From Oscillospiraceae bacterium (lineage in GTDB: Bacteria > Bacillota > Clostridia > Oscillospirales > Oscillospiraceae): 44,235 bases of DNA. The notes under the pieces are model-generated. The model did not search any database. It was not told the origin of the DNA and was given only the letters and a program-made list of their open reading frames with translations. The stretch spans positions 1 to 44,235 of the forward strand of contig WQWL01000015.1 in assembly GCA_009785345.1 (NCBI GenBank), given 5' to 3'. The translations under genes were made by a program, and so were the position numbers. Positions 19,253 to 30,172 of the stretch are shown piece by piece (the stretch's first letter is position 1; each line of letters begins with the position of its first letter).

Positions 19253-19337
19253 TGGTGCGGATGAAGGGACTTGAACCCCCACGCCTCTCAGCACGAGAAC
19301 CTAAATCTCGCATGTCTGCCAATTCCATCACATCCGC
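19253..19337 (-). tRNA. tRNA-Leu (anticodon UAG)
   Basis: The acceptor stem is GCGGATG (19331-19337) with CATCCGC (19257-19263), then discriminator A and an encoded CCA (19253-19255). The anticodon arm reads CGAGA-TTTAGGT-TCTCG, giving anticodon UAG, which reads CUA/CUG leucine codons. A long variable arm and the T arm GTGGGGGTTCAAGTCCC are present, as in class II tRNAs. Length is 85 bases with CCA. Two open frames cross this gene on either strand and are spurious. Confidence 0.95.
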
Positions 19338-21199: not shown

Positions 21200-21652
21200 T
21201 TATACTAATCTTTCCTCTATCTCCTTGCGGAACTTTTCTGCAGTAGCAGAGTCGGTCATTGCTAAAAAAGCTGTGTCATCACCAGCAAGTGTACCGACAA
21301 TGCTTTTTACGCCCATATCATCAATTGCACTGCATGCTGCCGGAGCAAGACCTGGAAGTGTTTTAATTACAACGATATTTTGTGCACAAGCTGATGACAT
21401 AATACTCTCTCTTAGAATGTTTTTTAGTCGTACAGAATTATTCTGTATCTCAGGTCTTTCACTAACAGCATACCTATATGTGCCGCGTGATGTGAGTTCT
21501 TTGATGAGGTGTAACTCCTTGATATCTCTGGAAACTGTCGCTTGTGTGCTTTCTATTCCGATTTTTGCAAGTTCCTCAATCAAGTGATTTTGAGTTTCTA
21601 CCTCTGTTGATGTAATGATATTCAATACTGCTCTTTGTCGTTCTCTTTTCAT
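21200..21652 (-). CDS. argR: Arginine repressor ArgR/AhrC
   Basis: A 150-residue hexameric regulator that senses arginine and controls arginine synthesis and breakdown. The N-terminal winged helix is seen in RQRAVLNIITSTEVETQNHLIEELAKIGIESTQATVSRDIKELHLIKE. The C-terminal arginine-binding domain contains KTLPGLAPAACSAIDDM and IVGTLAGDDTAFLAM, with the Asp pair that contacts arginine. GGGAG lies before the ATG, which shares one base with the nadK stop (TAATG), so the two are coupled. Position between nadK and recN is the conserved firmicute arrangement. Confidence 0.95.
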   Translation of the reverse strand: MKRERQRAVLNIITSTEVETQNHLIEELAKIGIESTQATVSRDIKELHLIKELTSRGTYRYAVSERPEIQNNSVRLKNILRESIMSSACAQNIVVIKTLPGLAPAACSAIDDMGVKSIVGTLAGDDTAFLAMTDSATAEKFRKEIEERLV

Positions 21653-22551: not shown

Positions 22552-23208
22552 CTAATTCAATTCACCATGGGATTCAGTTACGATTTTTTTTGTATCTATC
22601 TCGGCGCTTGCTCCGTAACTACTTAGCAGTCCGAGATATTCGATATTTCCCTTTGGTCCTTTTACCGGAGAGTGGGTTATACTCTCAACTATAAAGCCGG
22701 AATTTTCAGCATTAACAATAAATGCATCGAGTACTTCTTTATGTACTTCGGGATCACGCACTATGCCTTTTTTGCCAACCTTGCCTTTTCCTGCTTCAAA
22801 TTGTGGCTTTATTAGGCATACGGTCTGGCAATTTTCAGTCATTAACTTTCTTACAACAGGCAAAACGAGTGCAAGAGAAATGAATGAAACATCAATTACA
22901 GCAAGTTCGGGAGCTTTATCAATCATATCCGGTGTCACGTAGCGTATATTTGTACGTTCCATGACTACAACACGTTCATCGGTACGAAGACTCCACGCAA
23001 GTTGTCCGTATCCAACATCTACTGCATATACGAGTTGTGCACCTCGTTTCAACAGGCAATCTGTAAAACCGCCGGTTGAAGCACCACAATCGATACACAC
23101 CTTGTCTTTTGGTGAAATATCGAAAAAATTAAGAGCTTTTTCTAGTTTTTGTCCTCCTCGACTTACATATTCAAGTTCGCTAAAGAGGTCAAGGTCATTA
23201 TTTGCCAT
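22552..23208 (-). CDS. tlyA: TlyA-type rRNA 2'-O-methyltransferase lacking the S4 domain
   Basis: TlyA methylates ribose positions in 16S and 23S rRNA. The SAM-dependent FtsJ-like domain is complete: EYVSRGGQKLEKAL, VCIDCGASTGGFTDCLL (SAM site), AVDVGYGQLAWSLR, AVIDVSFISLALVLP and CLIKPQFEAGKGKVGKKGIVRDP. Standard TlyA has an N-terminal S4 RNA-binding domain of about 60 residues before YVSRGG; here only 14 residues precede it. An in-frame stop lies 15 codons upstream and oapA ends 44 bases away, so no S4 coding sequence remains. The ribosome site is weak. The dxs gene often found before tlyA is also absent. It may still methylate rRNA or be a remnant; the methylase domain looks intact. Confidence 0.85.
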   Translation of the reverse strand: MANNDLDLFSELEYVSRGGQKLEKALNFFDISPKDKVCIDCGASTGGFTDCLLKRGAQLVYAVDVGYGQLAWSLRTDERVVVMERTNIRYVTPDMIDKAPELAVIDVSFISLALVLPVVRKLMTENCQTVCLIKPQFEAGKGKVGKKGIVRDPEVHKEVLDAFIVNAENSGFIVESITHSPVKGPKGNIEYLGLLSSYGASAEIDTKKIVTESHGELN

Positions 23209-23252
23209 TGTTTTGATTACTCGTTTCGGTTTTTTGGATTAAAGTTACTAAT

Positions 23253-23852
23253 TTATTTTTGTCCGTTCTGTTTATCGGACTTATTTGACTTGTCAGATTT
23301 ATCTCGTTTCTCAGGCTTTGCAAAAGGCATTATACGAAAAAACTTACATATTTTGCCGACACCCAGTATAATTGCGGTGCTCTTATTAAAAGCAAGTGTT
23401 TTGCCGACAGCTTTACCACCGACAGTCACCCCGGTTACGACAGCCGAAATAATTACGGGGAACATAATGCTTTCCGTATTAAAGCCTTCCATAAGTCGTG
23501 CGGCTATCAACGCGGCAGTTGTTCCGCTGATAATTCCCGTAACATCGCCGATTACATCATTGCAGTAACATGTAACTCGGTTTGCGTTTTTGACCAGTCG
23601 CAGAGCCTCTGCTGCACCCTTTTGACGACGTGTTGCCATTGAGTTAAATGGTGCTTCATCAGCTGCCGTTACAGCAATGCCAACAACATCAAAGACGATA
23701 CCAACAATTATGAACACAGCAAGTACAGCAAATGACATGATGTAACCTGCATTACCCAAAATTTCTGTGGACGCAAGTGTAAACACAACAGATGCCACAA
23801 GACTGATTACAATTATTTTAATGAGCCATTTTATATCTGTTTTTTTATTCAT
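23253..23852 (-). CDS. oapA: OLE-associated membrane protein OapA
   Basis: A 199-residue membrane protein directly downstream of the OLE RNA. Four hydrophobic segments are visible at about residues 9-28, 34-60, 98-118 and 128-150. The segment VGIVFDVVGIAVTAADEAPFNSMA resembles the helix of CNNM/CorC magnesium-transport proteins, to which OapA is known to be distantly related. The C-terminus is strongly basic and polar (about the last 25 residues are mainly Lys, Asp and Ser), a plausible RNA- or membrane-surface contact. OapA is established as the protein that anchors OLE RNA at the membrane in related firmicutes. The ribosome site is weak (GAAAAG). Identification rests on topology, motif and position. 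Confidence 0.85.
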   Translation of the reverse strand: MNKKTDIKWLIKIIVISLVASVVFTLASTEILGNAGYIMSFAVLAVFIIVGIVFDVVGIAVTAADEAPFNSMATRRQKGAAEALRLVKNANRVTCYCNDVIGDVTGIISGTTAALIAARLMEGFNTESIMFPVIISAVVTGVTVGGKAVGKTLAFNKSTAIILGVGKICKFFRIMPFAKPEKRDKSDKSNKSDKQNGQK

Positions 23853-23999
23853 AGTCTTTTCAAAACGTTTCCCTCATCTCAACTCGATACGCAGTATCGA
23901 AAAGGACGAGCAACGAAGCGAGTATGCATTCGACTTTAGTCGGATGCGAACTTAGCGTAGTTTGCAAGGATGCGCGGCAGCGGGTGAAGTAAATCTTAC

Positions 24000-24862
24000 G
24001 GCTTAGGTCGGGCTGGATTTCCCCCGTGGATATCTTCCGTTGCCGTGAAGACGGTTTCCCATTAAACCCACGTCCGGAGTGTCGCCATTGTCAAGTAACC
24101 TTAACAATTGGAACTGTGTACTGAAACAGTAAAAGTTCCTCTCCGCTGCCCGATTGCCACTTAGTCCGTACTGTAATCCTCCGCCCGCCTCGTGAATGAT
24201 GAATATCACTCAATGAGCAGCCTAGGTGTTTTCCACCACAGTCAAACCGTCTCTTAGCCTCTTTTGCAGTAAATATTTCAAAGGCAGACTTGTTTTTTGT
24301 TATGGCCACAACGCAAACAAGTGATCCCCTTATCCGCATTTACCACTCAAGGCAGGCTACGCTGCACACAGCACAGGGAGAGTATAAGATATTTCACTTA
24401 CACCTACTCCACAAGCTTTCGCTCAAGCCGAAAAGAAGGCTTTACGCACCGCAATACAGGTTCACGCCTGATTCGTACGGGATCTGCATAGAGTCTGCAA
24501 AGAGAGTTCTCTTTAAGAGAATAAGCTCCTAGCATATCTCCGAACTGTCCCGCACAAGATCAGGTCTCCACGCAAGCAGGGTCGGGTTCTCCATGCCATT
24601 GGAGATCGCCCTGAGAGCGCAAGTGTGCAAGCAGTCTTGCGCACTTCCCCCCAGCACCCACCCCGAACTGGGCGTTCGAAGCAAGCACAAGGGGTTTCAA
24701 CGATATGCCCTTTAAAGGATTTTTAGGCCCTTCCTGGTAGACGGTAGATCTGACTAGGATACTGCGCCGCTAGATTGGTACAGTTATTTAAAAACCGGTA
24801 CACTATCAAAGTAGTTAACAAAGACACCGTACATACCGATATCTTTTCGGTACTTTCGATGT
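24000..24862 (-). ncRNA. ole: OLE RNA (ornate, large, extremophilic RNA)
   Basis: A roughly 0.8-kb non-coding stretch, much richer in G+C than its surroundings, lies between ispA and oapA, exactly where OLE RNA sits in other anaerobic and extremophilic firmicutes. Read on the minus strand it contains many local helices, for example CGAAC/GTTCG near 24670, AAGTG..CAAG/CTTG..CACTT near 24630, TTCTCT/AGAGAA near 24515 and CCGT/ACGG inside CGTGG/CCACG near 24010-24080. OLE RNA forms a complex with OapA at the membrane and has been tied to stress and magnesium responses. The 5' end is set from a strong promoter at 24869-24897; the 3' end near 24000 is approximate. Short open frames inside are not genes. 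I rejected a group II intron because no domain V or reverse transcriptase is present. Confidence 0.82.
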
Positions 24863-24868
24863 CATTTC

Positions 24869-24897
24869 ATTATACCAAATTTAAAGTGAATATTCAA
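24869..24897 (-). promoter_or_regulatory. Promoter of OLE RNA
   Basis: TTGAAT (24892-24897) and a perfect TATAAT (24869-24874), 17 bases apart on the minus strand, with TGG before the -10 (extended -10). This is among the best promoters in the window and would start OLE RNA near 24862. A 28-bp palindrome abuts the -35 box. Confidence 0.8.
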
Positions 24898-24925
24898 CAT
24901 ATTTTTTGAATATTCAAAAAATATG
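24898..24925. promoter_or_regulatory. Perfect 28-bp palindrome beside the OLE promoter
   Basis: The half-site is CATATTTTTTGAAT, followed directly by its exact reverse complement with no loop. It touches the -35 box of the OLE promoter. It could be an operator, an upstream activating element, or an A/T-rich bidirectional terminator for ispA. Confidence 0.55.
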
Positions 24926-24962
24926 CAGGGGATTTGTTACTATCACACTACGCATACCATCC

Positions 24963-25057
24963 GCCTCCATCAAGCAATATGTCACGAATTTTTCGCTAGA
25001 ACGGGTCTCATCGCCCTACATACGCGAAAAATCCGAGACATACCGCTTGATAGAGGC
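24963..25057. repeat. Long imperfect hairpin after ispA
   Basis: Arms 24963-24996 and 25024-25057 pair along about 34 positions with a few mismatches; the outer ends are GCCTC / GAGGC and the inner ends TTTTTCGC / GCGAAAAA. The 27-base loop holds a further GGG/CCC pair. It lies between the ispA stop and the OLE promoter and has no U-run, so it looks more like a dispersed repeat than a simple terminator. No second copy is seen here. Confidence 0.6.
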
Positions 25058-25081
25058 TAATCTGTGACTAGTTACGGGGAT

Positions 25082-25978
25082 TTAGTTCTTTCTTTCAGCC
25101 AATGCGTTTGCGATCCATATGAGAAATTCTATGTTTTCAAACTTGTCTTTGATTGCGTTTATGGCAGTTTCGGTTTCTCTGTTAACTATTTGTTCACTTG
25201 CTTCAACACCTAATAGTGAAGCAAATGTGGATTTTTCGTTATCGACATCTGAGCCAATTGGTTTCCCAAGTTCTTCTGCGGTCGCTGTACAATCGAGGAT
25301 ATCGTCACGCACTTGAAACGCAAGTCCAATCGCTTGTGCATATGCATCGGATGCATCCACTTGCTCTTGTGTTCCTCCACCTGCGATAACTCCCAATCTT
25401 GTTGCTGCAGATATAAGTGCGGATGTTTTTAGTGAGTATAGCTCTTTTAATTCGTCTATGGTGTGCTGCGTTCCTTCGCCAGATAAGTCAAGATATTGTC
25501 CTCCACATACTCCATGCGGTCCTGCGATTTGTGCGAGTACTTGCACCATTTTGACAATTGAATCTGTCGGCAAATCTGATTTAGAGAGCGATTCAAATGC
25601 TGCCGCTTGCAGAGCGTCACCTGCTAATATAGCGGTAAACTCACCATATGCAATATGGTTTGATGGTTTACCACGTCTCGTATCGTCTCCGTCCATACTG
25701 GGCAGGTCATCGTGAATTAGTGTATACGCATGTAACATCTCTATCGCACATGCGGCATCGAGCGCATCTTCAAGCTCTCCTCCGGTTGCTTCGCAAAATT
25801 TCATGCATAGTACAGCTCTCGCACGCTTACCACCGGAAAGCAGGCTATAACGCATAGACTCAATTAGTGTCGCATATCTTGAGTTGGTTTCGGTAAGAAG
25901 TTCATTCAGCCTGATTTCAATCATGTCGCGACATAAATCCATTTCGCTCTGCATGTTTGTACCCTTATTGCTAATCAT
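25082..25978 (-). CDS. ispA: Polyprenyl synthetase, farnesyl diphosphate synthase type
   Basis: Condenses IPP with allylic diphosphates to make geranyl/farnesyl diphosphate. The core starts LLSGGKRARAVLCM. The first Asp-rich motif is LIHDDLPSMDGDDTRRGKPSNH, with Gly where most relatives have Asp (MDDDD); the second is FQVRDDILD. GGQYLDL and the final K-rich helix are also present. Two starts are plausible: ATG 25978, ten bases after AAGGAG and overlapping the xseB stop (chosen, 298 residues), or ATG 25954 after AAGGG. The frame is open further upstream but overlaps xseB. It follows xseB in the usual firmicute order and precedes OLE RNA. Confidence 0.92.
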   Translation of the reverse strand: MISNKGTNMQSEMDLCRDMIEIRLNELLTETNSRYATLIESMRYSLLSGGKRARAVLCMKFCEATGGELEDALDAACAIEMLHAYTLIHDDLPSMDGDDTRRGKPSNHIAYGEFTAILAGDALQAAAFESLSKSDLPTDSIVKMVQVLAQIAGPHGVCGGQYLDLSGEGTQHTIDELKELYSLKTSALISAATRLGVIAGGGTQEQVDASDAYAQAIGLAFQVRDDILDCTATAEELGKPIGSDVDNEKSTFASLLGVEASEQIVNRETETAINAIKDKFENIEFLIWIANALAERKN

Positions 25979-26246
25979 CGAAGAGATACTCCTTAATATT
26001 TGTTTCATTGCTTGCAGGTTCATCGTCACTTGCTGGATCATTATTGATTGTGTTTTTCAGACGCACAACGGTTTGCTCAGCGGTTTCTAGCATTGTTGTG
26101 CAAGATTTAATCAGCTCAACACCCTCTTCAAATAATGCTAATGATTTATCAAGGGGTGCGTCTCCGGTTTCAAGTGATGTAACAATCTCATCAATTCTAG
26201 AAACAGCTTGTTCAAATGTTTGCTTCTCTTTAGATTTATTAGCCAT
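25971..26246 (-). CDS. xseB: Exodeoxyribonuclease VII small subunit
   Basis: A 91-residue helical protein that combines in several copies with XseA to form exonuclease VII. The family motif is clear: TFEQAVSRIDEIVTSLETGDAPLDKSLALFEEGVELIKSC, followed by a second helix. The acidic C-terminus (about 25 residues) is longer than in many relatives. GAGGA precedes the ATG. The end of the gene, KEYLF, encodes the AAGGAG ribosome site of ispA, and the stop overlaps the ispA start region, so the two are coupled. It is 125 bases downstream of xseA. Confidence 0.95.
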   Translation of the reverse strand: MANKSKEKQTFEQAVSRIDEIVTSLETGDAPLDKSLALFEEGVELIKSCTTMLETAEQTVVRLKNTINNDPASDDEPASNETNIKEYLFDD

Positions 26247-29737: not shown

Positions 29738-30148
29738 TCATTTCTTTTTAATGTTTAGAATATCATCGAGGATATTTTGTATATCATCAACTGTTATAGG
29801 CTTCTGAGGTGTTGTGCGTGAAAATAGATCCGCTATCAACTCGTCATTTTCACAGGCCTCTTTGAATCCAATAGCGAAGCACCTGAATGCATCTAGCTCA
29901 AATGAGTATGCGCAAAACATCATATGCTCTGAATCAAATTCAATTGCACTTTGTGAATCAGGAAAATACTCTTGAATATAGACTTCTGCCAACGATTCCC
30001 AGTCATATCCACTTCCTTCAAAGCCCTCATTTTCACGCGTTTTAAATAGCTCTGTTTTATAATTGTCGCTTGTATACAAAACAACTGCAGCACCCCCATT
30101 TTCATGTTCAATCCATGAAAATGGAGTTATTTGAGTTGTAAAATCCAT
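29738..30148 (-). CDS. Imm51 family immunity protein (orphan)
   Basis: A 136-residue acidic protein with the Imm51 pattern: ITPFSWIEHENGGAAVVLYTSDNYKTELF, then EGFEGSGYDWESLAEVYIQE, FDSEHMMFCAYSFELDAFRCFAIGF, and ELIADLFSRT. Imm51 proteins are predicted to neutralise polymorphic toxins delivered between bacteria. GAGG lies six bases before ATG 30148; the frame opens with a TTG inside that ribosome site. No toxin gene is adjacent; it is placed between a sugar isomerase and fructokinase. It may be an orphan immunity gene or a housekeeping member of the family. Confidence 0.8.
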   Translation of the reverse strand: MDFTTQITPFSWIEHENGGAAVVLYTSDNYKTELFKTRENEGFEGSGYDWESLAEVYIQEYFPDSQSAIEFDSEHMMFCAYSFELDAFRCFAIGFKEACENDELIADLFSRTTPQKPITVDDIQNILDDILNIKKK

Positions 30149-30172
30149 AATGCGCCTCAACTTTCTTTTAAG

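Follow-up and report, generated by a model that had tools for sequence, protein, structure and literature searches.

An enlarged OLE RNA beside oapA in an Oscillospiraceae nusB-recN operon, with a promoter overlapped by a putative tandem operator

The window, by which we mean the whole stretch of 44,235 nucleotides that was analysed (Oscillospiraceae bacterium, contig WQWL01000015.1), carries an authentic OLE RNA beside its partner gene oapA, and this OLE is an enlarged form specific to its genus, with an added branched stem. OLE is membrane-associated and is among the largest structured bacterial RNAs whose biochemical job is unknown. The locus as a whole is best explained as an OLE ribonucleoprotein with enlarged stems and an operator-gated promoter, a reading to which we give a probability of roughly 0.7. 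Three observations extend the initial annotation of this DNA, namely the internal enlargement of the RNA, a tandem palindrome over its promoter, and the presence of such a promoter in nearly all relatives. The genome assembly that contains the window is 86% complete.

The Rfam model RF01071 matches positions 24786-23958 of the minus strand over its entire length (model positions 1-616 of 616) with a score of 395.2 bits (E 9e-113), compared with a gathering score of 50 bits for this model. The OLE RNA proposed in the initial annotation is thus borne out by the covariance search. Neither of the findings that would have spoken against it appeared, as no RNA family other than OLE overlaps 24786-23958 in an Rfam search of the whole window, and the open reading frames within the OLE region are all short (at most 82 aa) and overlap one another. 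A tRNA is the sole further Rfam match at gathering score within the window. The full covariance match and the ispA-ole-oapA neighbourhood are common to the window and the OLE of Halalkalibacterium halodurans and Clostridium acetobutylicum (RF01071). The window also keeps L4 GCCUAAAAAUCC and the P9.3 GGCC loop, both of which are used in the cryo-EM dimerisation of known OLE (PMC12286853). The RNA and its neighbours are as follows.

25082-26041, minus strand: ispA, upstream neighbour of ole (gene annotation).
23958-24862, minus strand: predicted primary OLE transcript, ~905 nt, with its start placed from the -10 position and its 3' end from the end of the OLE match.
23958-24786, minus strand: OLE RNA, full-length RF01071 match, 829 nt for a 616-position model.
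23253-23852, minus strand: oapA, OLE-associated membrane protein A, 199 aa (CNNM match and co-occurrence with ole).
22552-23208, minus strand: tlyA, downstream neighbour of oapA (gene annotation).
21200-21652, minus strand: argR (ahrC), downstream of ole in the same operon (gene annotation).

The gene order read in the window, nusB-xseA-xseB-ispA-ole-oapA-tlyA-nadK-argR-recN, places ispA, OLE, and oapA together inside the nusB-recN operon, as had been noted from the letters alone. The assignment of OapA next to OLE also holds. Its match to CNNM is weak (22.6 bits, below the Pfam cut-off), and ole and oapA are found together in 18 of the 19 genus genomes, while searches with OLE and with the protein found neither in the remaining one (G003). 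Since the two are present or absent together and G003 is 97% complete, the 199-aa protein behaves as expected of OapA. The other known partners, OapB and OapC, are not universal and occur in ~60% and ~45% of OLE species, respectively (PMC11332333). In every ole locus whose operon was read, argR lies downstream of ole. The gene dxs is missing from the oapA-tlyA interval of the window, where 23208-23253 leaves no room for it; other families have an oapA-tlyA gap of a size fitting dxs, which was found there in relatives, and in the OLE-less G003 (L247) dxs comes after ispA.

The window OLE measures 829 nt plus a leader of ~76 nt, compared with ~577-630 nt in H. halodurans and C. acetobutylicum, and the larger part of this increase is internal and not in the 5' leader. 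Relative to the OLE of these two species, P7, P8, and the stem before P12.2/P13 are enlarged (stem names are those of the published model, which assigns J6/7 to the kink turn and places the GGCC kissing loop in P9.3; PMC12286853).

24621-24645, minus strand: 25-nt insertion relative to the OLE model, a potential hairpin before P6 (Rfam alignment).
24484-24544, minus strand: enlarged P7, 61 nt replacing 7 model positions (Rfam alignment and genus spacing).
24375-24445, minus strand: enlarged P8, 71 nt replacing 2 model positions (three hairpins on the P8 base).
24415-24422, minus strand: invariant GCGAAAGC, a GAAA tetraloop hairpin in the enlarged P8 (identical in 13/13 species).
24082-24138, minus strand: enlarged stem preceding the P12.2/P13 region, 57 nt replacing 4 model positions (weak folding z).

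Across the genus the conserved blocks keep fixed spacings of 50/40/16/38/42/37/15 nt, and the intervals that hold the three stems range from 46 to 110 nt for P7 (110 in the window), from 31 to 150 nt for P8 (102), and from 55 to 118 nt for the stem before P12.2/P13 (107). Short stem forms are retained in four members (G006, G007, G008, and G013). An origin of the inserts as mobile elements was ruled out, as the 905-nt region is single-copy in the genome. P7 and P8 are also variable in OLE variants 1 and 2 of the TANB77 and RF39 clades, which have P7 and P8 shortened or missing (PMC11332333); in the window neither stem is short or missing, both are expanded, and P8 carries a fixed subdomain. 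Because the described variants are shortened, the window OLE is an expanded variant, and this form complements those reported earlier.

Length drift is common in the peripheral stems of structured RNAs. This favours the unlikely alternative of an ordinary OLE-OapA locus whose extra stems reflect neutral drift and whose palindrome is an AT-rich promoter or UP element without a regulator. Such drift does not readily account for the GCGAAAGC octamer, which is identical in all 13 species with an enlarged P8 amid flanking sequence that cannot be aligned, nor for the covariation of the helix that precedes it, with two-sided changes at 5/5 pairs among the 13 species. In the helix beside GCGAAAGC, 89.5% of cells are paired, compared with 77% after shuffling and at most 58% when the alignment is slid, and the value of 89.5% is slightly understated because the MAFFT alignment shifts three sequences by one base within the variable P8 hairpin. 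Folding of the window P8 gives three hairpins on a single base (z -3.2). Outside the genus, parsing of 32 loci revealed no P8 with the GCGAAAGC element; scanning of the region returned the octamer itself in 3 of these 32, two of which have it in a differently built P8. The conserved added domain of this OLE form therefore lies inside P8. In the genus, three peripheral stems have grown and P8 has acquired a fixed GAAA-tetraloop hairpin, which most likely stabilises the particle through an additional tertiary or quaternary contact. The enlarged form with its fixed hairpin indicates where the OLE particle tolerates or exploits new contacts. Docking of P7 onto P8 was considered and is weakened as an idea, as the GAAA hairpin is also present in G011 and G017; both have a short P7, so that a P7-P8 contact is not required.

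Upstream of the RNA, the ole promoter consists of TTGAAT (24897-24892), a 17-nt spacer, and TG-n-TATAAT (24874-24869), matching 10 of 12 hexamer bases; the -10 element is perfect and extended, and the -35 element scores 4/6.

24940-25070, minus strand: multicopy hairpin element, MITE/REP-like, a near-perfect inverted repeat between ispA and the ole promoter.
24887-24916, minus strand: tandem palindrome TGAATATTCA-N10-TGAATATTCA, putative operator, with its proximal copy overlapping the -35 element.
24869-24897, minus strand: ole promoter TTGAAT, 17 nt, extended -10 TGGTATAAT (conserved in the genus).
24787-24862, minus strand: extra 5' leader, ~76 nt, with a 7+7 bp hairpin (folding z -3.2).

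The perfect extended -10 promoter that the initial annotation had described as dedicated to this RNA is real, but it is not a peculiarity of the locus. A promoter-like match precedes ole in 81 of 88 loci of the order, compared with ~26 on average in Markov controls (score of at least 9 of 13 within 130 nt preceding the conserved CAGTAT core), and a promoter at the ole 5' end is thus the rule across the order. As in the window, ole in H. halodurans is served by a promoter of its own and is "embedded in a large operon" (PMC9723947); OLE is reported to be abundant in that species (PMC12265935), and ethanol reportedly raises its level about five-fold (PMC9723947). The long hairpin at 24940-25070 was rejected as a part of OLE or a terminator, as this long-stem element has 55 full or partial matches genome-wide.

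The distance from the -10 element to the CAGTAT core is ~104 nt in the window, a value counted by hand since the -35 element fell outside the 130-nt scan, and is the longest of the set (median 16 nt, 88 loci). The unusually long 5' region previously remarked upon is therefore confirmed, although the added domain suspected in it is not. The leader at 24787-24862 folds better than all 200 shuffles (z -3.2), and the leaders of relatives are shorter, unrelated in sequence, and absent in most, so that the segment is a lineage-specific leader and not a conserved added domain. It could be supposed that leader and promoter form a separate regulatory RNA or attenuator ahead of OLE. The folding of the leader would suit this idea, and so would the G006 locus (L007), in which the stretch from the ole promoter to OLE contains a perfect hairpin with a run of U behind it that resembles a terminator or attenuator. 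However, the window leader has no Rfam match at the gathering threshold, and leaders that are non-homologous between species and mostly absent make a separate RNA highly improbable.

Several ole 5' ends in the genus are irregular. In G016 (L017), the OLE 5' end (GTGGCGCAGTATCC) is partly duplicated immediately upstream of the real one. Four genus assemblies have a break in or close to the 5' part of ole (G002:C84, G009:C29, G010:C71, and G005:C38; L031-L033 and L028), and in three of the four broken loci the ole promoter lies on a different contig end. The conservation of ole between co-occurring species probably confuses metagenome assembly, and therefore ole 5' ends may be under-recorded.

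The TGAATATTCA-N10-TGAATATTCA array over the promoter is found in 8 of the 19 genus genomes when two mismatches are allowed. All genus matches with 0-1 mismatch lie at ole or at contig ends that carry the missing ole 5' end (G002, G009, and G010); among two-mismatch matches, one in G009 lies away from ole and the remainder are ole-linked. Some genus members have a single palindrome or a degenerate one. Among 150 family genomes, the 0-1-mismatch matches are likewise all at ole (G000, G002, G019, and G107), and two of the three two-mismatch matches (G373 and G438) occupy the equivalent operon position, immediately upstream of dxs; no OLE was found in the genus of G373 and G438. In a control with 30 half-site permutations, TGAAT alone gave 10-bp palindromes at ole promoters (10 of 17 genus loci and 3 of 71 other loci, with 0 for the other permutations). 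Single TGAATATTCA sites were rejected as a regulon, as the 13 further loci in the genome are mostly inside genes and share no common theme. Such scattered intragenic sites, together with an A-tract between the two palindromes at the position of an UP element, count in favour of an AT-rich promoter without a regulator. Nevertheless, an UP element leaves unexplained the symmetric ATTCA that follows the -35 element within the spacer, the exact 20-bp repeat, and the near-restriction of the array to ole, and an operator is the reading that we prefer.

The half-sites of this putative operator point to the arginine repressor. The ArgR/AhrC operator (ARG box TGNATWWWWATNCA) shares with it the TGAAT/ATTCA half-sites, the overlap with the -35 element, and the paired sites; unlike the ARG box, the genus operator has abutting half-sites that form a 10-bp palindrome with a repeat period of 20 bp. 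At the 71 ole promoters outside the genus, the ARG box TGNAT-W4-ATNCA is exact in 7 and present with at most one mismatch in 18, and 11 other permuted motifs at the same promoters gave at most 1 exact match and 4 with at most one mismatch. The signal was present in the first set of 68 ole loci (5 exact, 0.08 expected) and again in a held-out set of 20 fetched later (2 exact, 0.04 expected); these are raw sequence counts, uncorrected for relatedness, and the boxes occur in at least 4 genera of two families. Judged by sequence, the ole promoters of families f13 and f19 carry canonical ArgR boxes. Boxes of the same kind precede argG in the ARG-box families, and boxes are found at argG/argC of these taxa. 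ArgR boxes at ole in two families, repeated in the held-out set, would offer a directly testable regulator.

Within the genus itself, none of the 17 ole promoters has an ARG box with at most one mismatch, and a canonical ARG box at the ole promoter of the window was accordingly rejected, TGNAT-W4-ATNCA being absent there even with one mismatch allowed. Genus argC promoters do have 14-bp ARG boxes (exact in G002 and G011, and two with one mismatch in G000); upstream of argG, none was found in three genus members. Because argC of the genus has ARG boxes and ole has none, the operator of the window, with its ArgR half-sites lacking a spacer, is not classed as an ARG box, and ArgR as the protein at the genus operator is only a hypothesis. 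A different regulator, specific to the ole/dxs-argR unit in the family of the window, may bind the tandem palindrome, and we regard this as falling only a little short of an even chance. It would agree with the canonical argC boxes of the same genomes, with their different spacing, and with the palindromes upstream of dxs-tlyA-nadK-argR in relatives without detected OLE (G373, G438, and G032). Against this, the half-sites match those of ArgR exactly while other permutations are absent, true ARG boxes occupy the same position in other families, and no candidate protein was identified.

OLE RNA is a reported binding target of ArgR protein in H. halodurans cells (PMC10898510), and binding in vitro is mentioned as unpublished work, with the contact site unmapped (PMC10898510, PMC12054373). 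In the literature searched, we found no link at the DNA level between ArgR and ole and no regulator of the ole promoter. The ARG boxes of f13 and f19, the downstream argR, and the binding of ArgR to OLE RNA together make an ArgR-ole feedback loop a testable prediction. In such a loop, ArgR at the ole promoter would repress ole-oapA-(dxs)-tlyA-nadK-argR and hence itself, OLE RNA would bind ArgR, and the genus operator would have been rebuilt as tandem abutting half-sites. This proposal is tentative and stands clearly below an even chance. If true, it would link arginine status and the OLE particle in a closed loop.

OLE dimerisation, OapA-dependent membrane localisation, and stress phenotypes are known from other species. 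In the preferred reading of the window, a promoter of the sigma-A type within the nusB-recN operon would give rise to a stable OLE RNA of ~0.83-0.9 kb, with transcription starting near 24862 and reading through from ole into oapA, tlyA, nadK, argR, and recN. OLE would fold around its conserved core and dimerise, and OapA would anchor it to the membrane, steps shown in other species and represented here by sequence elements only. A DNA-binding protein at the tandem operator would gate the ole promoter, and since the operator overlaps the -35 element this protein probably represses. Considered across the order, the operator position would most simply be a point at which the arginine repressor controls the ole-oapA-...-argR unit, although binding of ArgR at the genus operator is hypothetical because the genus argC boxes are canonical and the ole half-sites are spacerless.

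Elsewhere in the window, positions 29738-30160, upstream of the operon, encode an Imm51-family immunity-like protein beside a PfkB sugar kinase gene, and a tRNA gene lies downstream of recN at 19256-19337 on the minus strand.
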